Shown: in pieces, positions 10,846 through 21,607 of the stretch
How the letters are laid out: the number at the start of each line of letters is the position of its first letter
How positions within the stretch are numbered: position 1 is the first letter of the stretch
Origin: Pseudomonas sp. GM78
GTDB taxonomy: Bacteria > Pseudomonadota > Gammaproteobacteria > Pseudomonadales > Pseudomonadaceae
NCBI RefSeq assembly: GCF_000282475.1
Contig: NZ_AKJF01000124.1
Coordinates: 1-44,514 of the forward strand
Direction of reading: 5' to 3'
DNA length: 44,514 bases
Program-made: the position numbers and the translations under genes
The notes under the pieces: generated by a model
Told to the model about the DNA's origin: nothing
The model's input: only the letters and a program-made list of their open reading frames with translations
Database searches by the model: none

Positions 10846-12309
10846 ATGCCTGCAATCGACGTGCTGTATAAATGTTTTCGCCCTGGAACAGTTGACTCGA
10901 TTGCACCCACTCAACAATTCAATCTGCTGCGCTGGTTTTCGATTGCCAGCTTCCTTCTCGTCAGTGTGATTGCATTTGGGCTGGGCTCTTTGTCGACGAG
11001 TTTCCTGGTCGCGGAAAGCCTCGAGCGCGATGCACTGACGTCAGCACAGTTCATCCAGACCATCGCAAAGGGTGATATACGCCATCACGGACTGGCGGGT
11101 ATGCAGATCGGGGAGTTGCTGGCATTCACTCAACAGAAGACGATGCCACAAGACCAGAAGCAGATCGCACAGCCCATCAGCTTCGAATTCCTGGACTATC
11201 TTGCGCAGCTCCCGAACTCGCTCCTGATCAATATCTATTCCCCACTTCGAACAGTGGTCTGGTCAACCAACAAGAAGCTGGTTGGGCGAGCATTCCTGAA
11301 TGACGAGCTTGAGCAGGCATTCAGTTCCAAGGAGCGGATATCCACCAAGTACAGCAATGTCGATGCAGACCGCAGCGAACAGAAATTCCTGCACCCCCCG
11401 AAAGAATTCTTCATCGAAAGCTACATCCCTATCGTCGATGACCAAGGGAAAATTCTGGCGGTGGTTGAAATCTACAGGGAGCCTGCGGACCTCATTGAAC
11501 GCCTCAACCACGGGCACTGGCTAATCTGGCTGTCCACCATGGGCGGTCTGATGGTTTATTTCGGGATTTACTGGATTGCCCGACGAACATCGATCCAGTT
11601 GGCGTCAAAAGAAGCTCAAGTCGTTGCCAACAAGACCTACGTTGGCTTGGGCGAAGTGTCCACGGCCATTGCCCATAGCCTGCGTAACCCACTGGCCTGC
11701 ATCCGTTCAAGCGCAGAGTTGGCAAATGACATGGACGGCCAGCCTGCAAGCAAGCACCTCGACAATATTGTCGCTCAGGTGGACCGGATGTCGCGATGGG
11801 TACAGGAATTGCTCCTGTGCCTGGGCCCGATCCGCGGCGAGGCAGAGCTGGTGGATCCGATGGAGATGGTACAGGTCGCACTCGACAGCTTCAGTGCGCA
11901 ACTGAGTGCATCAAAAATCCAGGTGGCGTTCAAAAATGAATCCACGCCCCGGGTCATCAGCAATCCGCTGTTGCTCTCGCAGATTTTGAGAAGCGTCATT
12001 GCCAATGCCATAGAGGCGATGCCGACCGCAGGAACCCTGAACATCGAGGCTCGCCTGGATGATGCCCAACAACGGCTGAACCTGACCATCTGCGACACCG
12101 GGGGTGGATCTTCCCGGCAACAGCAACTGATGGCCTTCAAATCTTTCTACACCACCCGACAAGGCAGGCTGGGTATTGGCTTTATCATGGTGAGGCAGAT
12201 CATGGAATGTTTCGGCGGCGACGCGCGCCTGACAATCCAGGACAAACAGGGAACATCGGTGCACTTGAGTTTCAGGGTCCAGGACGGGAAAGCCAACGCA
12301 CCGCACTAA
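10846..12309 (+). CDS. Orphan membrane sensor histidine kinase
   Basis: A 487-residue inner-membrane kinase. Transmembrane helices are at about 29-53 and 224-246, enclosing a periplasmic sensing region of about 170 residues that could be a CACHE/PAS-like fold. The dimerisation box holds the phospho-acceptor His277 in AHSLRNPLACIRSSAE, the NtrB/DctB-like HSLRNP type. Then come the N-box (VIANAIEAMP), a G1 box reading CDTGGGSS in place of the usual DNGPGI, and a G2-like LGIGFIMVRQI. GGAG lies eight bases before the ATG. No response regulator gene adjoins it, and it converges on the exporter gene with a four-base overlap. Kinases of this subtype usually pair with sigma-54-type regulators, which agrees with the RpoN-like promoter upstream. 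The signal is unknown. The altered G1 box may lower ATP binding, but I expect it is active. Confidence 0.88.
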   Translation: MPAIDVLYKCFRPGTVDSIAPTQQFNLLRWFSIASFLLVSVIAFGLGSLSTSFLVAESLERDALTSAQFIQTIAKGDIRHHGLAGMQIGELLAFTQQKTMPQDQKQIAQPISFEFLDYLAQLPNSLLINIYSPLRTVVWSTNKKLVGRAFLNDELEQAFSSKERISTKYSNVDADRSEQKFLHPPKEFFIESYIPIVDDQGKILAVVEIYREPADLIERLNHGHWLIWLSTMGGLMVYFGIYWIARRTSIQLASKEAQVVANKTYVGLGEVSTAIAHSLRNPLACIRSSAELANDMDGQPASKHLDNIVAQVDRMSRWVQELLLCLGPIRGEAELVDPMEMVQVALDSFSAQLSASKIQVAFKNESTPRVISNPLLLSQILRSVIANAIEAMPTAGTLNIEARLDDAQQRLNLTICDTGGGSSRQQQLMAFKSFYTTRQGRLGIGFIMVRQIMECFGGDARLTIQDKQGTSVHLSFRVQDGKANAPH

Positions 12310-13709
12310 TCCTTGGCCCGTGCACGCTGCAACACCGCCTCCCCCGCCTGGGGCGGCAGTCGCAGGTTGTCCAGCAAGGCGATGGCCGCAATCACCGCCA
12401 CACACAGGAATGTCAGCTGGAAGTCGGCAGTCTCGGCGTGCCCTGCGGTGCCATGGATGTTCATGGCCAGGCGCAGCAGCAACGCGCCGATGGCCACCCC
12501 CATCGCCATGCTCAACTGGAAGAACATGCTGAACAAGGTTGAAGCGTCGCTCATCTGTTCCTTGGGGATTTCGGCAAAGGCCAGTGTGTTGAACACGGTG
12601 AACTGCATGGAGCGCGACAGGCCACCGACGAACAGGATGAACAGGATCAGCGCCGGACTCATGCGCTCATCCAGCAGCGCACACGCCGCGATCGCCAGGA
12701 CGCCAAGGATGCCGTTGACCATCAGCACCGGACGAAATCCCCAACGCTGCATCACCCAGGTGGTGAAGGGTTTCATCGCCAGGTTGCCGGCAAATACCGC
12801 CAATACCAGCAGCCCCGCATCGAACGCAGATAGACCGAAAGCCAGTTGAAACATCAGCGGCAGGAGAAACGGCAAGGTGCTGATGGCAATCCGGAAAATC
12901 GAGCCCCCGCACAGGCAGACGTTGAAGGTACGAATACCGGTTACACCCAGCGCCAACAAGGGTTGCGCATGCCGACGCATATGGCGCCAGGCGAAAATGC
13001 CGAGAACCACACCGGTGCCACTCAGTGCCAGGCCTTGCAGCACATCGTCACGACTTTGCCCGAGCATCTCCACGCCATACAGCAAGGCAGCGCTGGCGAT
13101 ACCCACCAACAGAAAGCCTCTGAAATCGAACGTCCTCGCACTGGCGTCGTCCCGTTTGGGCAGCAAGGCCAGCGCGGCAATCAGGGCCAACACGCCCAAT
13201 GGCAGATTGAGATAGAAAATCCACGGCCAGGAAGCGTGGGTGACGATGAAACCACCCACGGGAGGGCCAAGTACCGGTGCGACCAGGCCGGGCCAGGTAA
13301 TGAATGAGATCGCGCGCACCAGGTCTTTCTTCTCGGTGCTGCGCAGCACTGCCAGCCGTCCCACCGGCACCATCATCGCGCCGCTGATGCCTTGCAGCAC
13401 GCGAGCGGCGACAAAGGTTTCGAGGCTGTCACTCAACCCGCACATCAACGAAGACAAGGTGAACAGGACGATCGCCGAACTGAAGACCAGGCGCGAGCCG
13501 AAACGATCAGCCAACCAGCCGCTCATGGGGATGGACACCGCCACGGCGAGCATGTAGGCGCTCATGCCAATGTTCAGGTCCACCGCCGCGACGCCGAACG
13601 TCCTGGCCATGTCAGGCAACGCGGTCGCGATCACCGTGGCGTCGAGGTTCTCCATGAAGAACGTGACGGCTACCAATAGAGCAATCCATGTTGAGCGGCG
13701 TTGGGACAT
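12306..13709 (-). CDS. DHA2-family MFS multidrug exporter
   Basis: A 467-residue inner-membrane proton antiporter of the EmrB/QacA-like branch. Motif A is GWLADRFGSR (after helix 2). The N-terminal helix carries the family segment MENLDATVIATALPDM, and motif C-like glycines occur in PVLGPPVGG. Hydrophobic segments across the whole length suit the 14-helix DHA2 layout. The ATG at 13709 has AGGA nine bases upstream. It lies 73 bases downstream of the kinase gene of the seven-gene operon on the same strand, so it may be read through from there, or it may have its own promoter near the palindrome at 13765. There is no adaptor protein (EmrA) gene beside it. The substrate is unknown; it could export the product of the neighbouring operon, but that is only inference from position. 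Confidence 0.88.
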   Translation of the reverse strand: MSQRRSTWIALLVAVTFFMENLDATVIATALPDMARTFGVAAVDLNIGMSAYMLAVAVSIPMSGWLADRFGSRLVFSSAIVLFTLSSLMCGLSDSLETFVAARVLQGISGAMMVPVGRLAVLRSTEKKDLVRAISFITWPGLVAPVLGPPVGGFIVTHASWPWIFYLNLPLGVLALIAALALLPKRDDASARTFDFRGFLLVGIASAALLYGVEMLGQSRDDVLQGLALSGTGVVLGIFAWRHMRRHAQPLLALGVTGIRTFNVCLCGGSIFRIAISTLPFLLPLMFQLAFGLSAFDAGLLVLAVFAGNLAMKPFTTWVMQRWGFRPVLMVNGILGVLAIAACALLDERMSPALILFILFVGGLSRSMQFTVFNTLAFAEIPKEQMSDASTLFSMFFQLSMAMGVAIGALLLRLAMNIHGTAGHAETADFQLTFLCVAVIAAIALLDNLRLPPQAGEAVLQRARAKD

Positions 13710-13764
13710 CGGTCATTCCTGTTTGACTGCGTGGTTGCTCGACTGGCTAACCTGCGCACTTTGC

Positions 13765-13778
13765 GTCATGTAAATGAC
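13765..13778. promoter_or_regulatory. Palindrome GTCAT-N4-ATGAC before the exporter gene
   Basis: GTCATGTAAATGAC has perfect five-base arms around a four-base spacer. It lies 56 bases upstream of the exporter ATG and just past the stop of the kinase gene. It could be a repressor operator, but no adjacent regulator gene suggests which. Confidence 0.3.
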
Positions 13779-13782
13779 AACG

Positions 13783-15150
13783 TCAAAAGCGCCGGATTTC
13801 CAACGAAGCGCGCAATCCACCCTGCTCGCGATTCTCCAGCCTGACCTGCCCGCCCAGGCGATCGGCAATGGCCCGAACAATGGTCAGTCCCAAGCCTGCT
13901 CCCTGGTCATTTGCCCGGCTGTAAAATCGCTCGAACAGCCGCTCGCGGTCCTCTTCCTGGATCCCCGGCCCCTCGTCCTCCACGGACAGTTCATAGCCCT
14001 GTTCGGTTTTGGCCAGCCTGACGGTGATCAGCCCATGCACAGGCGAGAAATTCGCCGCATTGGTCACCAGGTTGTTCAACGCAATATCAATGGCGGCGGG
14101 ATCGACTTTTACCTGGCTGACGTCGCCGCTGACATCGAACACCAGCTCCAGGTTTTTGCCCAACAACCAGGGCGTCAGCTGAATCAGGCTGTCGCGAACC
14201 GTGGCTTGCAGGTCAATGTATTCAGGGGGTTGAACGCCTGCCTGGGGTTCGATACGCGCCATCGTGAGCAACTGGTTGACCAGTCGGCTGGTCCGGTCCA
14301 CGCCAGCGATCAGGTGTTCCAGCGATGCGCGGCGCTCCGCCTCGCTCCCCGCCTCCATCAGGTTCTGCGCATGCACCCTGAGCACCGCCAGCGGCGTGCG
14401 CATTTCGTGGGCGGCGTCGGCGATGAAACGTCGCTCACGCCCCAGTACTTCCTGAATCTGCGCGAGCACGCGGTTCAGCGCCGCTTGCATGGGCTCCAGC
14501 TCGCTGGGCAGTGGCGACAGGTGCAACGGCTCCAGTGAACCGCTGTGCCGTGCACGCAGGGTCGCCGCCATGTTCGCCAGCGGCTTGAGACCCCAGCCGA
14601 TGGCCAGCCAGACCATCACCGCAAGCAGCAGGCTGCCCAACATGTTGGGCCAAAGGGTATGGCGCACGATCCGGTCGACCAGGTCCGCCCGTACGTCGTC
14701 CCGTTCACCGACCCAGATCCGCAGGTGATTTTGCTTGTCTTCCAGCAGGAACGCGCGCCAGTGGCGGTTGTTCAGGTCCACCACATCGCTGAAGCCGGGC
14801 ATGGAGGGGGCAACGGTAAAAGAGGGAGCGCTGGCGGTGTGCACCAGCACTTCGCCCTGGGGATTGAAGACCTGAAAGGCAATCTTCCTTTCATAGGGGT
14901 GACCGTCACCCCTGGGCACCGCTTCGCTCAAGGCCTTGTTGAACGCCTCATACAACTCGGCGTGCTCCTTGCTGGCCAGTGGCATGCGCAGCACGCCTTG
15001 CAGCAATCGCGCGTTTTGCGCGAGTTGGGCGTCGTAGACTTCGGCAATTTCGTGATGGCTGTCGTACAGGTTCAAGGCGCTGATCACACCGAGACCCGCG
15101 AGCATCAGGCCGATGATCAGCGTCAGGGTGCGACGGCGGATCGACGTCAC
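13783..15150 (-). CDS. QseC/PmrB-type sensor histidine kinase
   Basis: A 455-residue inner-membrane sensor kinase that partners the regulator encoded just upstream. Helix 1 is at about 9-27. A periplasmic domain runs to about 165, with an acidic/His-bearing loop. Helix 2 is at about 167-187, followed by a HAMP-like linker. The phospho-acceptor is His248 in FIADAAHEMRTPLA, with an N-box (NNLVTNAANFSP), a G1 box (VEDEGPGI) and a G2 box (GAGLGLTIV), all intact. The start is GTG and overlaps the regulator stop by four bases (GTGA), so the pair is translationally coupled. It is the last gene of the seven-gene operon. Family members sense cations, acidity or membrane-active compounds; here the signal is unknown and may relate to the pathway encoded upstream. 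Confidence 0.93.
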   Translation of the reverse strand: MTSIRRRTLTLIIGLMLAGLGVISALNLYDSHHEIAEVYDAQLAQNARLLQGVLRMPLASKEHAELYEAFNKALSEAVPRGDGHPYERKIAFQVFNPQGEVLVHTASAPSFTVAPSMPGFSDVVDLNNRHWRAFLLEDKQNHLRIWVGERDDVRADLVDRIVRHTLWPNMLGSLLLAVMVWLAIGWGLKPLANMAATLRARHSGSLEPLHLSPLPSELEPMQAALNRVLAQIQEVLGRERRFIADAAHEMRTPLAVLRVHAQNLMEAGSEAERRASLEHLIAGVDRTSRLVNQLLTMARIEPQAGVQPPEYIDLQATVRDSLIQLTPWLLGKNLELVFDVSGDVSQVKVDPAAIDIALNNLVTNAANFSPVHGLITVRLAKTEQGYELSVEDEGPGIQEEDRERLFERFYSRANDQGAGLGLTIVRAIADRLGGQVRLENREQGGLRASLEIRRF

Positions 15151-15809
15151 CGACGCTCCTCCACCAGATAACCGACGCCGCGAATGGTACGGATCAGGTC
15201 GGTGGAGAACTTCTTGCGCAGGTGATGGATGTGCACTTCCAGGGTGTTGCTTTCAGCCTCCTCGTTCCAGCCGTAGAGCAATTGCATCAGATGGTCGCGG
15301 GTCATGACCCGGCCCGGCGGCGAAAGCAGTTCGTGCAACAGCTGATACTCCTTGGGCGTGAGCGCCACCGGCTCGCCCTGGTAGCTGACTTGCTGGGTGC
15401 CAGGGTTGAGCCTGATGCCAGCGTGCTCGATCAACACCTGTGCGCGCCCGGCGCTGCGCCGCAACAGGGCGCGCAGGCGCGCCTTGAACTCGGCCAGGTC
15501 GAAGGGCTTGATCAAGTAATCGTCAGCCCCGGCGTCGAGCCCGGCAATGCGGTCTTCGGTGGCATCCCGGGCCGTGAGAATCAGCACCGGCAGGTTCGAG
15601 CCGCTGTCGCGCAGGCGCCGCAGCACTTCGAGCCCGTCCATGCGCGGCAGGCCAAGGTCAAGCACCGCCAGGTCAAAGGTTTCGCTAAGCAGCGCATGCA
15701 AGGCGCTGCTGCCGTCTTGCAACCAGTCGACGGTATAGCCTTCGCGCCCCAGGGCTTGATGAATGCCTTCGCCGAGGGCCACATCATCTTCAATCAGTAG
15801 TAAGCGCAC
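15147..15809 (-). CDS. OmpR-family response regulator (QseB/PmrA-like)
   Basis: A 220-residue regulator with an N-terminal receiver and a C-terminal winged helix. The receiver has the acidic pair at 8-9, phospho-acceptor Asp51 (VLDLGLPRMDG), Thr near 79 (LILTARD) and Lys near 101 (YLIKPFD). The DNA-binding part carries LTPKEYQLLHELL and the TLEVHIHHLRKK recognition region. The start is GTG at 15809 with AGGAG upstream. It lies 11 bases after the TPR gene and overlaps the kinase by four bases, inside the same operon as the biosynthetic-type genes. PmrA/QseB-class regulators bind direct repeats of CTTAA-like half-sites spaced 11 bases; such a repeat is at 20133-20149 before the first gene of the operon, suggesting autoregulation. 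Confidence 0.93.
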   Translation of the reverse strand: MRLLLIEDDVALGEGIHQALGREGYTVDWLQDGSSALHALLSETFDLAVLDLGLPRMDGLEVLRRLRDSGSNLPVLILTARDATEDRIAGLDAGADDYLIKPFDLAEFKARLRALLRRSAGRAQVLIEHAGIRLNPGTQQVSYQGEPVALTPKEYQLLHELLSPPGRVMTRDHLMQLLYGWNEEAESNTLEVHIHHLRKKFSTDLIRTIRGVGYLVEERR

Positions 15810-15820
15810 GCGGGCTCCTG

Positions 15821-16465
15821 TCAGCCAAGTTTCCTGTTCACGTCCACCAGCAGTGTTTCGATCTCTTTGCGACGCCCGGTATCGGCGGTTTCCCGACCGG
15901 GCCGAGGGGCTGCCAACAGGGCTTTTTGCAACGCGGCCCTGGCCTCAGCGTAGCGCTTTTGACGGTAGAGGTGGTCCCCCCAGAAGTACAGGCTGTCGAT
16001 GCCATTGGGGTTCATCTGCAAGGCGACCTTGAGCAATTGCTCGGCTTTGTCGGCGTCACCGAAACCGATCGGCCAGCCTGGCACGCGGTCATACAACGCA
16101 CCGAGGCTGGTATAGGCCGAACCTTGCAAGGCCTTGGGGTCCAGGGTCAGGGCTTTTTCCAGATACTGCCTGGCGTCCTTGACCTTGCCCAGGGCGCCAA
16201 GCCCCCCTTGGGCGCCGGCCCAGCTGCTGGTGACGATGCCGGACCAGATCCAGGCCTCGGCCACTGACTGGCGTTCCTGGGTAAACGCAGCCGCCTGGGT
16301 GGCGAGTTTTTCGAAGGCGGCAGTGCGCTGCCCCTCGGGCAATTCGTACTGAATATGCGCCCAGCTCTGCTGGATGCCATTGAGACGTTGCTGATCGGCG
16401 GCGTCCAGGGCCCAAACGCTCTGGCTCAAGGCGCCCAGCAGTAAACACGCGGCAAATTTTTTCAT
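15821..16465 (-). CDS. Periplasmic TPR-repeat protein
   Basis: A 214-residue exported protein. The signal peptide MKKFAACLLLGALSQSVWA is cut after about residue 19. The mature part is helical with tetratricopeptide-like repeats: one around ARQYLEKALTLDPKALQGSAYTSL, one around AEQLLKVALQMNPNG, and one around RYAEARAALQKALLAAP. The ATG at 16465 overlaps the stop of the SDR gene by four bases; a longer open frame reaching 16930 lies on top of the SDR gene and is not real. In the operon it sits between the enzymes and the two-component pair. Its function is unknown. A periplasmic scaffold or sensor partner of the kinase is possible, but nothing in the sequence proves this. Confidence 0.85.
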   Translation of the reverse strand: MKKFAACLLLGALSQSVWALDAADQQRLNGIQQSWAHIQYELPEGQRTAAFEKLATQAAAFTQERQSVAEAWIWSGIVTSSWAGAQGGLGALGKVKDARQYLEKALTLDPKALQGSAYTSLGALYDRVPGWPIGFGDADKAEQLLKVALQMNPNGIDSLYFWGDHLYRQKRYAEARAALQKALLAAPRPGRETADTGRRKEIETLLVDVNRKLG

Positions 16466-17271
16466 GGCTCGAGGTTCTCGTTGTCCGGCTTTTGACTCAG
16501 GCGGCGAATCAGTGGCAATTGCTTGCGCAAACCCCGATCCACCAGGTGGGGCAACAGGCTGTTGAGGCGCACGAAAAAGCGCTCCGGCCAGCCCAGGTAC
16601 AAGTCGCGGCGGTCGCCGGCAATGGCGTGGATGACCGCCGAGGCGACGGTCTGCGGGTCGTCGACGCTGGATTTGAGTGCGTCGTTCAAGGCCTGCGCCG
16701 CCGGGCTGTTCATACTCGTGCGGGTGGCGCGCGGTGCGACGTACAACACACCGACCCGGGTGTCCGCCAATTCCCGGCGCAGGGCTTCGGAAAACCCGCG
16801 CAGGGCGAATTTGCTGGCGCAGTAACTGGCGTAACCGGCATAGCCAATCGAGCCGTAGGTGGAACCGACGTTCACCACCATGGCGCTGTCGGCCTGCTTG
16901 AGCAGTGGCAGCAAGGTTTTGGTCAGGCACACCGGCGCGCTGATGTTCACCGCCAGCATCGCGTTGATTTCGCTGTCATCGAGTTGTTCGAGCATGGCGA
17001 AGTGGTTGACTCCGGCCGCATTGATCAGCAGGTTAATCACGCCCAATACTTCGGCGGCGGCCAGCACCTTGCGCCGGTCGGCCTGCACTGTCAGGTCGGC
17101 GCCCACCCAGAACAGCCTGTCCCGATAGCGTTCGAGCAAGGGCTCCAGCGCCTCCCGATGCCGAGCCACGGCCAGCACCGTGGCGCCACTGGCGCACAGA
17201 GCGGTGGCGATCGCCAGGCCAATGCCGCCGCTGGCGCCGGTCAGTACCACGCGAGCCTCAGACAGGCGCAT
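16462..17271 (-). CDS. SDR-family oxidoreductase in acyl-processing operon
   Basis: A 269-residue short-chain dehydrogenase of the classical family. TGASGGIG is at residues 11-18, NAAG is in the middle, and a Tyr-x3-Lys pair is present in YCASKFALRGFSEALRREL. Its C-terminal helix-rich extension (RFFVRLNSLLPHLVDRGLRKQL) is typical of SDRs that act on membrane-bound or lipid-like substrates. The ATG at 17271 has GGGGAG upstream and overlaps the diiron-enzyme gene by 14 bases. Together with the acyl ligase and the diiron enzyme it would reduce or oxidise a fatty-acyl-derived intermediate; the exact reaction is unknown. Confidence 0.9.
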   Translation of the reverse strand: MRLSEARVVLTGASGGIGLAIATALCASGATVLAVARHREALEPLLERYRDRLFWVGADLTVQADRRKVLAAAEVLGVINLLINAAGVNHFAMLEQLDDSEINAMLAVNISAPVCLTKTLLPLLKQADSAMVVNVGSTYGSIGYAGYASYCASKFALRGFSEALRRELADTRVGVLYVAPRATRTSMNSPAAQALNDALKSSVDDPQTVASAVIHAIAGDRRDLYLGWPERFFVRLNSLLPHLVDRGLRKQLPLIRRLSQKPDNENLEP

Positions 17272-17932
17272 GCGGGTTCTCCCCGTCCCGTGGCAGGCCA
17301 CGGAACATGTCGGCGTAAAGCCGGTAAACCACTTTCGAGGCGTGGATGACGGCGGCCTGATCGCCAGGGTCGTGCAGTTTGTTCATGAGTCGGCGGTAGG
17401 TCTGCATATGCTCGATGTCCAGCGACCCGTGGGAATCGAGGTAGCTGAAGGCGCTTTGCGGCAGCCCCAGGCGCTCGCGAATGCTGCCGGCGGCATGGGT
17501 GGCCAGGGCGATGCTGGTGCCCTCCAGCACATTGACCATGCCGAACAGCCCTACCGGATTGCCCCGGGCAATCAAGTCGTAGAGAAAGCTGACCATCAGT
17601 TCGATGGCCAACGAAGGCTGGCCGTCGCGCACCGCTTCCTTGTCGCCGCCACAGGCCTGGATATCATCGAGTACCCATTGTTCGTGGCCGTACTCATCCT
17701 CGATGTACTCACATACGGCCTCACGCAGCCACTCCAGGCGCGACGGCAGGCGTGCACCGCAGGCCATCATCAACGGCACGGTGTGGCGCACGTGGTAGTA
17801 GGCCTGGGCCAGGAAGGCCCGGTAGCTCTCCAGGCTGACCTTGCCTTCGAGGGCATCGACGATGATCGGCAGATTGAACAGCGTGTTGCGCTCCTGGTGG
17901 GTGGCCTCTTGCAGCGTGTCGAAAAAGCTCAT
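17258..17932 (-). CDS. Heme-oxygenase-like diiron oxidase/oxygenase (HDO)
   Basis: A 224-residue all-helical protein of the TenA/heme-oxygenase-like iron-enzyme superfamily. Metal-ligand positions seen are Glu80-x2-His83 (DEYGHEQW), Glu137 (NVLEGTS) and His168-x3-Asp172-x2-His175 (SHGSLDIEH). I compared these from memory with the fatty-acid decarboxylase UndA (Glu101, His104, Glu159, His194, Asp198, His201); order and local spacing agree. Such enzymes use two irons and oxygen to cleave or oxidise unactivated C-H or C-C bonds of fatty acids or amino acids. The start overlaps the ligase stop by four bases (ATGA). Beside an acyl-AMP ligase, the substrate is probably an acyl compound. It is not UndA itself: it is shorter and clearly diverged. 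Confidence 0.85.
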   Translation of the reverse strand: MSFFDTLQEATHQERNTLFNLPIIVDALEGKVSLESYRAFLAQAYYHVRHTVPLMMACGARLPSRLEWLREAVCEYIEDEYGHEQWVLDDIQACGGDKEAVRDGQPSLAIELMVSFLYDLIARGNPVGLFGMVNVLEGTSIALATHAAGSIRERLGLPQSAFSYLDSHGSLDIEHMQTYRRLMNKLHDPGDQAAVIHASKVVYRLYADMFRGLPRDGENPHAPV

Positions 17933-19416
17933 GGTGCGGGTTCCTCGAAAAGTGCCGACTCAGTCAGCTGGACCCGGTATCGCTCGACGATGGCATCGCG
18001 GCGTGGGCGACCGTTGGCCGTCAGCAGGCCATTTGCAGCGGTGAAGGGTTGTTCCAGGCGGGTCCAGTGCCGGACCCGGGCGTAATCGGGCAAGGCCTCG
18101 TTGGCCTCGGCCACGGCGGCGGCCAATTGCTCGTCCGGGCAGTCCGCACGGTACGGCCAGAGCAATGCATGGTTGCCCGGCAGGGCTTCGCCATGGACAA
18201 AAGCCTGGGCGATATGACGGCGCTGGGTCAGTTCGGCTTCGATCCACTCCGGGTTGACGTTGCGCCCGAAGCTCGTAACAAACTGATGTTTCTTGCGGCC
18301 CTTGAGGTAGAGAAACCCTTCCTTGTCGAACTCGCCGAGATCACCGCTGGGCCACCACTGATCAGCGTGCGGCGCCTCTCCCAGGTAACCCAGCAGCGTC
18401 GAGCCCTTGATCAGCACTTCGCCGTCGTCGGCCAGGCGAATCTGCACATGGGGCAAGGGCCGGCCGACGCTGCCAGGACGCCAGGCTTGCGGTGTATTGA
18501 GGCACACCACCGAGGCACATTCCGACAGTCCATAACCTTCGTAGACCGGCACGCCTGCACGTTGGGCACGATGCAGCAAATCCAGGCTAACCCGCGCACC
18601 GCCCACGGCGGCAAACCGTAGATGTTCTGGATCGAAGGCTTTCTGCTCGGCCGCGCTGACCAGCATCAGCAGCAACTGCGGCACTAGGATCAGGCTCTGG
18701 GGCGATCGTTTGGCCAGGCATTCCAGCAGTTGCGGCACATCCACACCACTGGCGCCCTGAATCCCCAGGGCTTCCTGGCTGGGCAGGCTCAAGGTCGCGC
18801 CGGCATACAACGCAGCGTAACAACCGATGTTCTCCAGCAAAATGGCGAGCGGCAGCAGCGCCAGATGATGCCGGGGATGGCAGCTTCGACTGGCCTGATC
18901 CAGTTCGCGGGCGACCCGCAGAATGCTCTCGGCGCTCAAGCACACGCCTTTGGGTGTCCCCGTGGTGCCGGAGGTGAACGTCAGCTTGGCGGTGCCTTCG
19001 GGCATGCGCTTCGAGTCACTGAAGGTGCGGCGCCAGAATCCAGCGGTAGTTTCATAGTCATAGCCGGCCGCTTGCAGTGGCGCCGCCAGTTGCGGTTCGG
19101 CGATCACCCTTTCGGCCTGGCTTTGTTCCAGGCAATGACGGCACTGCGCCGGGCTGAAGAAAGACGGTAGCGCGACACAGGTCAAGCCTTCGAACAGCGC
19201 GGCCAGGTCCCAGAGCATCGCTTCGACGCCATTGTCCAACGCCAGGGCAAACACCTTGATGTGTTCATCGCGCAGCCGTTGCTGGCGGTCGATCACTTCG
19301 GCGTACAGGGTGGCGTAGTCCAGTTTCAACTGATCGCCCCACAAGGCAATGCCATTGCCCTTGCGTTCGGCTTGATCGCGCAGCGTCTGTTGGAAACGCT
19401 CGACTTCAGGCGACAT
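17929..19416 (-). CDS. Acyl-AMP ligase (ANL superfamily)
   Basis: A 495-residue AMP-forming enzyme that would activate a carboxylic acid. The A3 P-loop is TFTSGTTGTPKGV, A5 is YEGYGLSE, A7 is WWPSGDLG, and A8 is GRKKHQFVTSFGRNVNPEWIE-like with the hinge. The A10 region reads LLTANGRPRR, where most family members have a catalytic Lys in the xGK position; here it is Arg. Without that Lys adenylation is often weak, so this deserves a check. The ATG at 19416 overlaps the hemolysin-family gene by 11 bases. No acyl carrier protein gene is present, so the acyl group may pass to CoA, to a free amine, or to the GNAT-like neighbour. Fatty acid is the likely substrate class, by inference from neighbours. 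Confidence 0.88.
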   Translation of the reverse strand: MSPEVERFQQTLRDQAERKGNGIALWGDQLKLDYATLYAEVIDRQQRLRDEHIKVFALALDNGVEAMLWDLAALFEGLTCVALPSFFSPAQCRHCLEQSQAERVIAEPQLAAPLQAAGYDYETTAGFWRRTFSDSKRMPEGTAKLTFTSGTTGTPKGVCLSAESILRVARELDQASRSCHPRHHLALLPLAILLENIGCYAALYAGATLSLPSQEALGIQGASGVDVPQLLECLAKRSPQSLILVPQLLLMLVSAAEQKAFDPEHLRFAAVGGARVSLDLLHRAQRAGVPVYEGYGLSECASVVCLNTPQAWRPGSVGRPLPHVQIRLADDGEVLIKGSTLLGYLGEAPHADQWWPSGDLGEFDKEGFLYLKGRKKHQFVTSFGRNVNPEWIEAELTQRRHIAQAFVHGEALPGNHALLWPYRADCPDEQLAAAVAEANEALPDYARVRHWTRLEQPFTAANGLLTANGRPRRDAIVERYRVQLTESALFEEPAP

Positions 19417-20083
19417 GGCAGCAGCCCTCGATGGACGAAGGCAAACCCAGTCGACTGAACAGACCTGTGTTGCGTAAATGAATGAACCCGCTGCGGATAT
19501 TGCCAACATGAACCCAGGGTTTGCTTTCGTAGTAACTGCCCCAGGCATGGCGGTCTTCGCCCAGGCGCGCAGGATCGGCGGCACACAGTGTCACCGGCTT
19601 CAAACCCAGGCGATGGAAACTGTTGACCAGGCCAATATTGCCGGTGAACGCCACCCACTCCAGACCGCCCATGGCCAGCACGTAGGTCATCGCGATGATG
19701 CTCATGCGCGCACTGCCCGTGTCGGCGGCCGCCAGATTGCCGACTTCGACGATGGCGGATCGGTCTACGATCCGGTCCGCTGCGGCGCTGATCAGCGGAT
19801 CGATCGGCTCGTCCAGATAGCCCTCCAGAAACAGCGGTTGCGTGCCTGCCAGTCGCACCCCGGCCACCGCACACAAGGCACCGGACGCATCGCTCATGCC
19901 AAACAGTTCTGGCATGAAATGACGGATGTCGGCGCCGTGGGCCTTGCGAAATCGCTGCTGGATGAAGCCTTCGAAGACCGACCGCTGCGCGTCGTCGGGC
20001 AAGGCCCTGAGCAGGCTCATGGGCGGTGTTTCGGCTTGGCCGAAATACAGCGGCAACTGCACGTTCCAGTTGAATTCGGACAT
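19406..20083 (-). CDS. Thermostable-hemolysin family (GNAT-like) protein
   Basis: A 225-residue protein resembling the Vibrio thermostable delta-hemolysin family, which has an acyltransferase-like (GNAT) core rather than a pore-forming fold. Family-type features are YLDEPID, the SAIVEVGNLAAADTGSAR segment (a core strand and loop) and the YVLAMGGLEWVAFTGN region. The start at 20083 has a strong GGGGAGGGG site; an in-frame codon 24 bases upstream is poorer. No signal peptide is seen, so it is probably cytoplasmic. It is the first gene of the seven-gene operon, before the acyl ligase. A plausible inference is transfer of an acyl group made by the ligase to an amine-type acceptor; the name hemolysin should not be taken as its role. 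Confidence 0.85.
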   Translation of the reverse strand: MSEFNWNVQLPLYFGQAETPPMSLLRALPDDAQRSVFEGFIQQRFRKAHGADIRHFMPELFGMSDASGALCAVAGVRLAGTQPLFLEGYLDEPIDPLISAAADRIVDRSAIVEVGNLAAADTGSARMSIIAMTYVLAMGGLEWVAFTGNIGLVNSFHRLGLKPVTLCAADPARLGEDRHAWGSYYESKPWVHVGNIRSGFIHLRNTGLFSRLGLPSSIEGCCHVA

Positions 20084-20132
20084 TGGAAAACCCCTCCCCC
20101 GGATCAATTGGGGAGCAGTATCAAAGGGATTT

Positions 20133-20149
20133 CTTAACGAAGTCTGAAG
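20133..20149 (-). promoter_or_regulatory. PmrA/QseB-like direct repeat before the operon
   Basis: On the minus strand CTTCAGACTTCGTTAAG holds two CTTAAG-like half-sites (CTTCAG and GTTAAG, one mismatch each) with an 11-base period, the layout bound by PmrA/QseB-class regulators. A -10-like GATACT follows 10 bases later. It lies 50 bases upstream of the first gene of the operon that encodes such a regulator, so autoregulation is plausible. Confidence 0.4.
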
Positions 20150-20242
20150 GTGAAGAGGCTATTGATCGCTACGCTTGGCTCAAGGCCGGTTGATTTTTAT
20201 CAGCTGCCGGCTCCAATTGGATCGGCCCTCGGGAGATTGGCC

Positions 20243-20668
20243 ATGCTGGCTGTCACGCTGATCAATGCGCTGGTGGTGATCCTCGCCATCGTGATCCACT
20301 ACGAATGCCTGCTGCGTCTCAACGACTGGCTGCCCCGGCTCAAGCTGTGGAGCCGCTTCAGGATTGTCGTCGGAGTATTCGGCGCCCTGCTGGCCCACGC
20401 TGCAGAAGTCTGGTGCTTCGCGTTGGTCTATTACCTGATGGTGCATTCCGGCAAATGGGGCAGCCTGACGGGCAATTTCGACGGTTCGCTGATGGACTGC
20501 GTGTACTTTTCCTTCACCACGTACACGACCATCGGCTTCGGCGATATTTCACCGGTGGGCGACCTCAAGTACCTGACCGGGCTTGAGGCCCTGACCGGGC
20601 TGGTCCTGATAACGTGGACCGCGTCCTTCCTCTTTCTGGAAATGCAGAAGTACTGGAAGCGCAAATAA
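20243..20668 (+). CDS. Small two-helix K+ channel protein
   Basis: A 141-residue inner-membrane protein with the potassium selectivity filter TTYTTIGFGD (near residues 95-104) between hydrophobic segments: about 1-20, 45-68 and 115-134. A channel of this size would work as a tetramer. I chose ATG 20243 because GGAG lies seven bases upstream; a GTG at 20150 would add 31 residues but has only a weak site and sits on the probable operator of the divergent operon. No ligand-binding (RCK or cyclic-nucleotide) domain is present, so gating cannot be read from the sequence. It converges on the universal stress genes, which end 54 bases away. Confidence 0.82.
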   Translation: MLAVTLINALVVILAIVIHYECLLRLNDWLPRLKLWSRFRIVVGVFGALLAHAAEVWCFALVYYLMVHSGKWGSLTGNFDGSLMDCVYFSFTTYTTIGFGDISPVGDLKYLTGLEALTGLVLITWTASFLFLEMQKYWKRK

Positions 20669-20722
20669 TCACGTTTGCCAGGCGTAGCAGGCAGTGTGCG
20701 ACAATTCACGCCTCCATTCGAT

Positions 20723-21607
20723 CTAAACCGCCAGAACGCAGCACGGCACTTGATACAGGATATGCTCGGTGGTGCTACCCAGCAGTTTGCCCACCCCATG
20801 GGACTGAACCCTGCCCATCACGATGACATCCACGTCATGCTCATTGGCGAACTCGCTCAGCACCGACACCGGATGCCCCTGGATGAAATGCCGACGATCA
20901 GGGGGAACGCCGAAACGCCCGGCCAACCTCAGGAAGGACTGTTCCAGATCGGTGCGTAGCTCTCGGGTGAGGTCGGCGAGCGCCAGACCGCCCATGTCCG
21001 CCAGATAACCCGCCGTGATATCGCAGGCGTACAACAAATGCAACTCGGCGCCACACTGCAGGGCAAGGCTTGCGGCCTGTTTGATGATCTGCTCATTCAG
21101 TTCGTTGTCGGCTGACTCACTGTCTGACACCTCGACGGCTGCCACCACCCTGCGTGGCAATGCGGCGCCACTGCGACCCACCAGAAACACCGGTACTGGA
21201 CAATGGCGCAGCAGATGCCAGTCCAAAGGCGTGAAGAAGGCGCGCTGGAGCGCTGATTCATGCTGAATGTCCTTGATCAACAGGTCGGGTTGCAGCTCTG
21301 CGACGTGATCAAGGATGTCCTGTTTCATGTCCTCAGCCCAAACCACCTCGTTGGTCACCTCGATACCTGTGCCACGCAGATGTTTTGCCTGGGCCTCAAG
21401 CCAGTCGCGGTGGTCCTGCAGGTAGTGCTCCCGAGCGAGTTTTCGATCGCCTTCTTCAAGCAGCGATAGCCATTTGAATGAGGGAATCAGCGCCGCGATA
21501 TGCAGGCTCGCGCCACTGGCCTTGGCCAGCGCTGCAGCATGGTTAATGGCTGAGGGATGGCGCAGGGCCGGGTTGATGATAAGCAATAACCGTTGGTACT
21601 GGCTCAT
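20723..21607 (-). CDS. Tandem-domain universal stress protein (copy 2)
   Basis: A 294-residue cytoplasmic protein with two UspA-type domains (about 1-145 and 150-294). The second ends in the nucleotide-binding-like pattern VIVMGRVQSHGVGKLLGSTTEHILYQVPCCVLAV, where G-x2-G-x9-G-[ST] is recognisable. The first domain is degenerate in this motif. It lies 21 bases downstream of a close paralogue (21629-22543), with which it shares many segments (for example HYQRLLLI-like start, LLIKD, PVSVxSEF), so the two arose by duplication and form one operon. USPs of this kind in P. aeruginosa are induced by Anr during oxygen shortage and aid survival. The Anr-like box upstream of the first gene fits this. 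Confidence 0.92.
   Translation of the reverse strand: MSQYQRLLLIINPALRHPSAINHAAALAKASGASLHIAALIPSFKWLSLLEEGDRKLAREHYLQDHRDWLEAQAKHLRGTGIEVTNEVVWAEDMKQDILDHVAELQPDLLIKDIQHESALQRAFFTPLDWHLLRHCPVPVFLVGRSGAALPRRVVAAVEVSDSESADNELNEQIIKQAASLALQCGAELHLLYACDITAGYLADMGGLALADLTRELRTDLEQSFLRLAGRFGVPPDRRHFIQGHPVSVLSEFANEHDVDVIVMGRVQSHGVGKLLGSTTEHILYQVPCCVLAV

Follow-up and report, generated by a model that had tools for sequence, protein, structure and literature searches.

What does a gene annotated as a thermostable hemolysin do at the head of a tightly packed run of acyl-handling enzymes and regulators? The question arises on a contig of Pseudomonas sp. GM78 (NZ_AKJF01000124.1, assembly GCF_000282475.1), whose positions 1 to 44,514 make up the window analysed here. 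Seven minus-strand genes at 13783-20083 encode, in this order, the hemolysin-family protein (hereafter called TH, for thermostable hemolysin), an AMP-forming acyl ligase, a heme-oxygenase-like diiron oxidase/oxygenase (HDO), a short-chain dehydrogenase/reductase (SDR), a tetratricopeptide repeat (TPR) protein, an OmpR-family response regulator and a sensor histidine kinase. A first-pass annotation, made from the DNA letters and their open reading frames, had proposed that these genes form a small pathway for a modified fatty-acyl product, whose expression is set by the regulator in the same transcript. On balance, we favour an oxidised N-acyl compound as the product of the operon, probably a fatty-acyl amide or similar amphiphile. 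In this view, the co-encoded regulator switches the operon, and the product would cause the haemolysis linked to TH. The unit is genuine and widespread, most likely biosynthetic and of acyl type and, where the regulator is present, probably self-regulated. Its features are as follows.

20133..20149, minus strand: PmrA-like box CTTCAG-N5-GTTAAG, predicted site of the co-encoded regulator
19406..20083, minus strand: TH, annotated thermostable hemolysin (PF12261), predicted LuxI/FeeM-fold N-acyl synthase
17929..19416, minus strand: AMP-forming acyl ligase (AMP-binding, PF00501, E 1e-45)
17258..17932, minus strand: HDO, heme-oxygenase-like diiron oxidase/oxygenase (Haem_oxygenas_2, PF14518, E 2e-32)
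16462..17271, minus strand: SDR of the PRK09072 family (adh_short; NF006565 385.4 bits, cut-off 238)
15821..16465, minus strand: exported TPR protein with a BstC-like segment (TPR_2), possible lipid carrier
15147..15809, minus strand: OmpR-family response regulator (Response_reg and Trans_reg_C), nearest PmrA and QseB
13783..15150, minus strand: sensor histidine kinase (HisKA and HATPase_c, 2CSK_N sensor domain), nearest QseC

The coordinates reproduce to the base the tight packing reported in the first-pass annotation: starting from TH, the junctions consist of overlaps of 11, 4, 14 and 4 bases, an 11-base gap and a 4-base overlap. Every Pfam family assignment of the seven proteins lies above its curated cut-off, which upholds the families first named for TH, ligase, SDR, TPR protein, regulator and kinase; slightly extended 5' ends were used in the family scans of TH, ligase and SDR. 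The genome, a 7.29 Mb assembly of 235 contigs, contains a single TH match and a single HDO match.

A conserved gene set

The first-pass annotation had suggested looking for the same families in other genomes, where they proved to form a genuine conserved unit. Our scan of named genomes gave at least 583 confirmed stretches, of which we analysed the closest 80, mostly from Pseudomonas. All seven genes were found in the same order in 71 of these 80 loci, indicating that their arrangement is not due to chance. The closest named locus among those kept belongs to Pseudomonas mandelii, with an HDO 91% identical to that of the window.

To cover a broader range of taxa, we recorded TH (by Pfam, E 1e-3) and HDO (E up to 1e-15) in 299 genomes across the phylum. 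TH was present in 67 genomes and HDO in 69; 65 harbour both, two TH alone, four HDO alone and 228 neither (Fisher p 3e-58, a value that ignores shared descent). The two TH-only genomes are G130 and G254, the latter being 67% complete, and two of the four HDO-only genomes have weak matches, at 28-30% identity.

From the 69 places with TH, we chose 32 neighbourhoods. TH, ligase, HDO, SDR and TPR genes are found together in 29 of them, and in the same order in 28. The exceptions are a neighbourhood with TH and ligase only (L032), one with TH only (L056) and one where SDR and TPR genes were not recognised (L058), while the TPR gene comes first in L049. A matching regulator (at least 150 bits) was identified in 14 of the 32 neighbourhoods; none of these 14 belongs to families f32 and f52, which account for ten neighbourhoods. 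These families are most likely Zetaproteobacteria, given that the named-genome scan includes a Mariprofundaceae locus (L133). Thus, a five-gene core, TH-AMP-HDO-SDR-TPR, recurs elsewhere in Pseudomonadota, and in the sampled likely Zetaproteobacteria it occurs without an adjacent two-component system. The kept order, the co-occurrence of TH and HDO and independent ligase-HDO fusions (see below) indicate that the unit likely represents one pathway. Distance correlations across the seven proteins range from 0.81 to 0.96 (22 loci); they mostly reflect shared descent and were not used as evidence.

The core is also carried on plasmids, including a mobilizable plasmid of Citrobacter freundii, and a conjugative Vibrio parahaemolyticus plasmid bears it intact. 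Within Pseudomonas, 133 of the 298 genomes sampled carry HDO. In four Pseudomonas genomes (G428, G516, G576 and G580), the HDO frame is interrupted by a single internal stop codon, which suggests that the gene is decaying in some species or that the sequence contains an error. TH copies also occur outside the cassette: one f32 genome has an additional copy (L056, 9794-10432), and a plasmid of Photobacterium damselae carries another (L147, 8920-9513). No ligase was recognised beside TH in L056, L147, L151 and L153.

The ligase and its diiron partner

In AMP-forming ligases, the C-terminal A10 motif usually provides a catalytic Lys residue. At this position (R470 in the window), our alignment of 47 ligases shows Arg in 41, Lys in five and Ala in one, and the adenylation chemistry may therefore be altered. 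Arg is also found there in three clusters with a TauD oxygenase described below (L148, L150 and L152), and Lys in a fourth (L146).

HDO matches Haem_oxygenas_2 with 112.9 bits (cut-off 28.9). Six of its residues, E80, H83, E137, H168, D172 and H175, are invariant in all 31 sequences aligned, and their motif spacing makes them candidate metal ligands. As proposed ligands, they match the 3H/3C set (three His, three carboxylates) given for most HDO members in a passage of the 2026 review of the superfamily.

In four loci (L041, L045, L046 and L050), ligase and HDO are encoded by one open frame, and the HDO-domain tree requires four separate fusion changes. Similarly, in four Pseudoalteromonas records the HDO match lies under a feature named AMP-binding protein. 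Four independent fusions argue that ligase and HDO work together, and their coupling is strongly supported.

The enzyme was first described as UndA-like, with an alkene among the conceivable products. Its placement among the heme-oxygenase-like diiron enzymes stands. In a profile search of PDB sequences, 3dde came closest, followed by weak matches to CADD, MboA and AetD, and UndA did not appear among the 24 sequences retrieved with E values of up to 1, so that 'UndA-like' is valid only at the level of the superfamily; the search gives no backing for a specific UndA relation or an alkene product. A volatile alkene, released by an UndA-like fatty-acid decarboxylase, would be in keeping with the shared superfamily and the same type of 3H/3C ligand set. 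However, UndA acts on the free acid, so that a fused ligase would be pointless for such an enzyme, and ligase and HDO were fused four times. We consider this scenario very improbable and set it aside on the profile search. HDO thus shares the Haem_oxygenas_2 domain and the invariant 3H/3C set with UndA, CADD, MboA, AetD and 3dde, but it belongs to a conserved subfamily that is associated with TH and the ligase and whose closest solved relative, 3dde, is without an assigned function.

TH, a predicted acyl synthase

TH matches PF12261 with 199.6 bits (cut-off 27). We predicted its structure using the TH sequence of the window together with those of 29 relatives (predicted local distance difference test 90.7, predicted template modelling score 0.88), and re-aligned the model to Foldseek's top 1000 PDB chains, considering scores no more than 1 apart as tied. 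The best matches were TofI (15.6 and 15.3, two entries), LasI (15.4), RpaI (14.7), BjaI (14.6-14.4, four entries) and FeeM (14.4), and the next GNAT protein was SbzI (13.6). All nine top matches are therefore LuxI-type acyl-homoserine-lactone (AHL) synthases or FeeM, and the predicted model has the GNAT fold of the AHL-synthase type, an assignment that is strongly supported by the modelling. At the sequence level, alignment with a LuxI and FeeM profile gave an hhalign p of 0.0087 and a score of 25.0, with six non-GNAT controls at 19.7 or less. Sequence-only comparisons of TH with LuxI and with LuxI plus FeeM were weak, those with OlsB and with FeeM were not significant, and no match to Pfam Autoind_synth was obtained at E up to 1. 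By its predicted fold, TH is most likely an N-acyl synthase, bearing in mind that a shared fold is no proof of function. This fold lends weight to the acyl-transfer capability initially attributed to the gene set.

TH nevertheless differs from the LuxI-type AHL synthases, of which the CoA-dependent RpaI and BjaI are the closest parallels, by the accompanying diiron oxygenase and SDR, and it has a conserved C-terminal WG-YY-P motif as a feature of its own. With the N-acyl amino acid synthase FeeM, it shares the predicted fold without a significant sequence match.

Annotated records and genome surveys name the lead gene a hemolysin. Might TH then be a true protein haemolysin, with the remaining genes as accessories? 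Besides the family name, this idea draws on a 22.8 kDa Vibrio cholerae protein that was haemolytic in both lysate and supernatant and whose signal peptide was not identifiable, as retold in a passage of PMC4046660. The missing signal peptide itself argues against a protein toxin, as do the predicted enzyme fold and the regular proximity of TH to a ligase and an oxygenase. TH also occurs in Mariprofundaceae, which are iron oxidisers. We regard a protein toxin as highly improbable and set it aside on the predicted fold and the gene context; the haemolysis reported in V. cholerae would suit a detergent-like product. If TH is a LuxI-fold acyl synthase, the hemolysin annotation misleads in hundreds of genomes.

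Sister clusters with TauD oxygenases

In another type of cluster, TH and ligase genes are followed by a TauD/TfdA oxygenase gene. We found such clusters on Streptomyces plasmids (L148, L149 and L152) and on a Pantoea plasmid (L150). The locus of Acinetobacter haemolyticus (L146) has the order TH, small open reading frame, ligase, transposase, TauD and SDR, the last akin to the window SDR (179 bits). TauD was confirmed by Pfam in L146, L148 and L150 and taken from the record annotation in L149 and L152. The TH proteins of L148, L149, L150, L152 and L032 form a supported branch of their own, and that of L146 stands apart on a long branch. In Serratia ATCC 39006, or1352-or1355 encode TauD, ligase, TH and a transporter, and the TH gene, or1354, is up 184-fold in an rsmA mutant, according to passages of PMC4046660. 

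These clusters resemble that of the window by the combination of TH, AMP ligase and non-heme iron oxygenase. They differ from it in that TauD/TfdA replaces HDO and that the other tailoring genes are not the same, and neither the TPR gene nor the regulator pair is annotated alongside in the stretches seen. The replacement of HDO by TauD indicates that TH and ligase are the more constant pair, to which a non-heme iron oxygenase is usually added as the third member. The triads of L148, L149, L152 and L150 are surrounded by genes for methyltransferases, transporters or weakly AurF-like proteins and look like uncharacterised biosynthetic clusters. An amidase gene is found near TH and ligase in L148 and L032, which would suit an amide product.

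Probable regulation by the co-encoded two-component system

The response regulator has PmrA (PRK10643) as its best NCBIfam model, with 257.4 bits (cut-off 330), and scores 241.7 against QseB (cut-off 345), and the kinase scores 235.9 against QseC (cut-off 475). The pair thus has the PmrAB and QseBC systems as nearest families, but it remains below all three curated cut-offs and is encoded within the gene run of the operon. 

The PmrA-like box precedes the TH start by 50 to 66 bases. As in the PmrA sites CTTAAG and XTTAAT described in a passage of PMC3973317, its half-sites are five bases apart, in direct repeat. We scored the pattern TT[AC]AG-N6-TT[AC]AG on both strands over ~310 bases around the TH start. 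The pattern was framed after viewing the window, on the basis of a PmrA consensus, and it was later relaxed to allow C besides A at one position and to cover both strands, with the same pattern used for the controls; the counts omit the window itself and L130, a contig without TH. Among loci with the regulator, which are mostly from Pseudomonas, 86 of 89 have a box of at least 9/10 and 79 of 89 one of 10/10, compared with 5 and 2, respectively, of the 22 loci without it. In random windows, these scores were reached in 21 and 1 of 890 cases for regulator-bearing loci, and in 9 and 0 of 220 for loci without regulator; dinucleotide shuffles gave scores of 9 or more in 109 of 2220. After thinning to <70% HDO identity, a full-score box was found in 12 of 14 loci with the regulator versus 1 of 12 without it. 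Full-score boxes without regulator occur in L046 and in L109, a Pseudomonas locus whose recognised genes are limited to TH, ligase and a shortened HDO; conversely, L111, L138 and L141 have the regulator but no box. A stricter pattern has four exact matches genome-wide, one of them here, and its backward control has equally many.

Since the presence of the box tracks that of the regulator, the latter most likely controls its own operon through the predicted box, as a dedicated, self-regulating switch. The idea that expression is set by the co-encoded regulator has thus gained strong support, and we infer activation rather than repression. The box also provides a direct handle on the system, first for a reporter of the inducing condition, then for comparative metabolomics to find the product. 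A divergent gene coding for an Ion_trans_2 channel-like protein (20150-20668, plus strand) has its listed start codon abutting the box; its true start may be downstream, or the box may be shared.

Might the product be a secreted acyl signal, with TH in the role of LuxI and the QseC-like kinase in that of the receptor, closing a cell-cell signalling loop within one operon? The LuxI-type predicted fold of TH, the autoregulation indicated by the box and the presence of kinase and regulator genes in the same gene run, kept in most of the closest named loci, are all consistent with this possibility. However, no matching regulator was present in the stretch read for 18 of the 32 TH neighbourhoods, including the ten of f32 and f52, and regulators of biosynthesis are often encoded alongside without sensing the product. 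The nearest families of the kinase moreover sense metals, iron or host amines. We therefore find a signalling loop doubtful. It is similarly unlikely that these operons represent a second widespread class of LuxI-fold acyl signalling, with an oxidised acyl signal, a BstC-like export carrier and, where present, a kinase that senses the signal; if they did, the synthesis core of this class would span Pseudomonas, Vibrio and the iron-oxidising Mariprofundaceae.

The SDR, the TPR protein and possible links with the envelope

In the SDR, S137, Y150, K154 and the Gly motif are conserved in at least 93% of the 45 sequences aligned. Read by eye, the N-terminal 19 residues of the TPR protein resemble a Sec signal peptide. 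All 29 TPR members matched the BstC sterol-transporter model at E up to 0.001; the window protein scores 42.3 bits, below the cut-off of 350, and the relation is one of resemblance only. This protein also matches 59 residues of 7t1s, spanning the conserved VPGWPIGFGD segment, and designed TPR proteins outscore 7t1s in total score.

In L041, L043 and L047, genes for a family 2 glycosyltransferase (GT2), a VTT-domain protein and an ArnT-like PMT_2 transferase either separate the regulator pair from the core or flank them, as identified by Pfam in L043 and by clustering in L041 and L047. Together with the BstC-like TPR protein, these neighbours point to the cell envelope. In L043, L044 and L052, the regulator pair is adjoined by a cupredoxin-type gene and two unassigned genes.

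The product might accordingly be a protective or remodelled lipid that remains in the envelope and forms part of an envelope stress response of the PmrAB/Arn type. The PmrA-like box and a regulator closest to PmrA fit this possibility, as do the exported BstC-like protein and the GT2, VTT and PMT_2 genes next to the same kind of two-component system. Nevertheless, ArnT-like neighbours are found in three lineages only, and the haemolysis of V. cholerae was also present in the supernatant, as retold in a passage of PMC4046660. We regard a retained lipid as a tentative alternative, less probable than the oxidised N-acyl amphiphile proposed above.

A putative pathway

In the pathway that we propose for this amphiphile, the ligase would adenylate a carboxylic acid and most likely hand the acyl group to coenzyme A or a carrier. 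HDO would oxidise the acyl chain during activation, or just before or after, and the SDR would adjust the newly introduced oxygen function. TH, as a LuxI/FeeM-fold synthase, would couple the acyl group to an amine, and the exported BstC-like TPR protein may handle the product in the periplasm. The kinase and the PmrA/QseB-type regulator, encoded last in the gene run, would turn the operon on through the box that precedes TH. The haemolysis linked to TH would be an effect of the detergent-like product and not of a pore-forming protein. The acyl nature of the substrate, the order of the steps, the amide product, the role of the TPR protein and haemolysis by the product are what we infer.

Earlier descriptions of the gene set

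Parts of the gene set have appeared in print. In V. cholerae, the gene for delta-thermostable hemolysin in the dth region adjoins that of an AMP ligase. The region includes DthC (VCA1110), and a VCA1110 transposon mutant showed altered elongation of a fed C13 acid, like acs1 and prpE mutants, according to passages of PMC12208996. VCA1105, a regulator gene with changed in vivo expression in an excerpt of PMC4441509, would belong to the same operon judging from the gene numbering. In V. parahaemolyticus, VP1729 is TH, VP1731 an iron-containing redox enzyme and VP1735 a QseC-like kinase in passages of PMC10469919, and the numbering VP1729-VP1735 would fit the same seven genes. A 'thermostable hemolysin cluster' of Methylophilaceae is mentioned in a passage of PMC10872708.

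In these passages, the Vibrio genes of the dth region and VP1729-VP1735 are described as haemolysin or by predicted interaction, and a pathway, fold, box or product does not appear in them. The literature searched, which leaves most subscription journals outside, yielded no product for the dth, VP1729-VP1735 or Methylophilaceae sets. The initial statement that no product is described thus agrees with our search, with the qualification that the gene set is partly in print as a hemolysin cluster. As far as we found, the parts are of known kinds, and their combination and probable product class are new. If TH is indeed a LuxI-fold acyl synthase, there is a whole group of acyl metabolites still to be identified, with a diiron chemistry and a regulatory switch of their own.

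Surroundings of the operon

A consensus scan of 12200-20800 revealed no sigma-70-type promoter ahead of TH. It gave one sigma-70-like site, on the opposite strand and inside a gene (1.8 expected), and nine terminator-like sites (6.7 expected); because these counts are near expectation, no promoter or terminator was placed. Searches of the window for tRNA genes and Rfam families gave no matches, nor did a search for near-identical plasmid DNA.

On the same strand, 73 bases downstream of the operon, a gene at 12306-13709 codes for an MFS efflux protein of the DHA2/EmrB type, and read-through into it is possible. We considered it as an eighth member and rejected it, as it was never the best match in the 32 and 80 neighbourhoods (E 1e-5; 150 bits). 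Its end is abutted by that of a separate sensor kinase gene on the plus strand (10846-12309), whose product is nearest to AtoS and ZraS.

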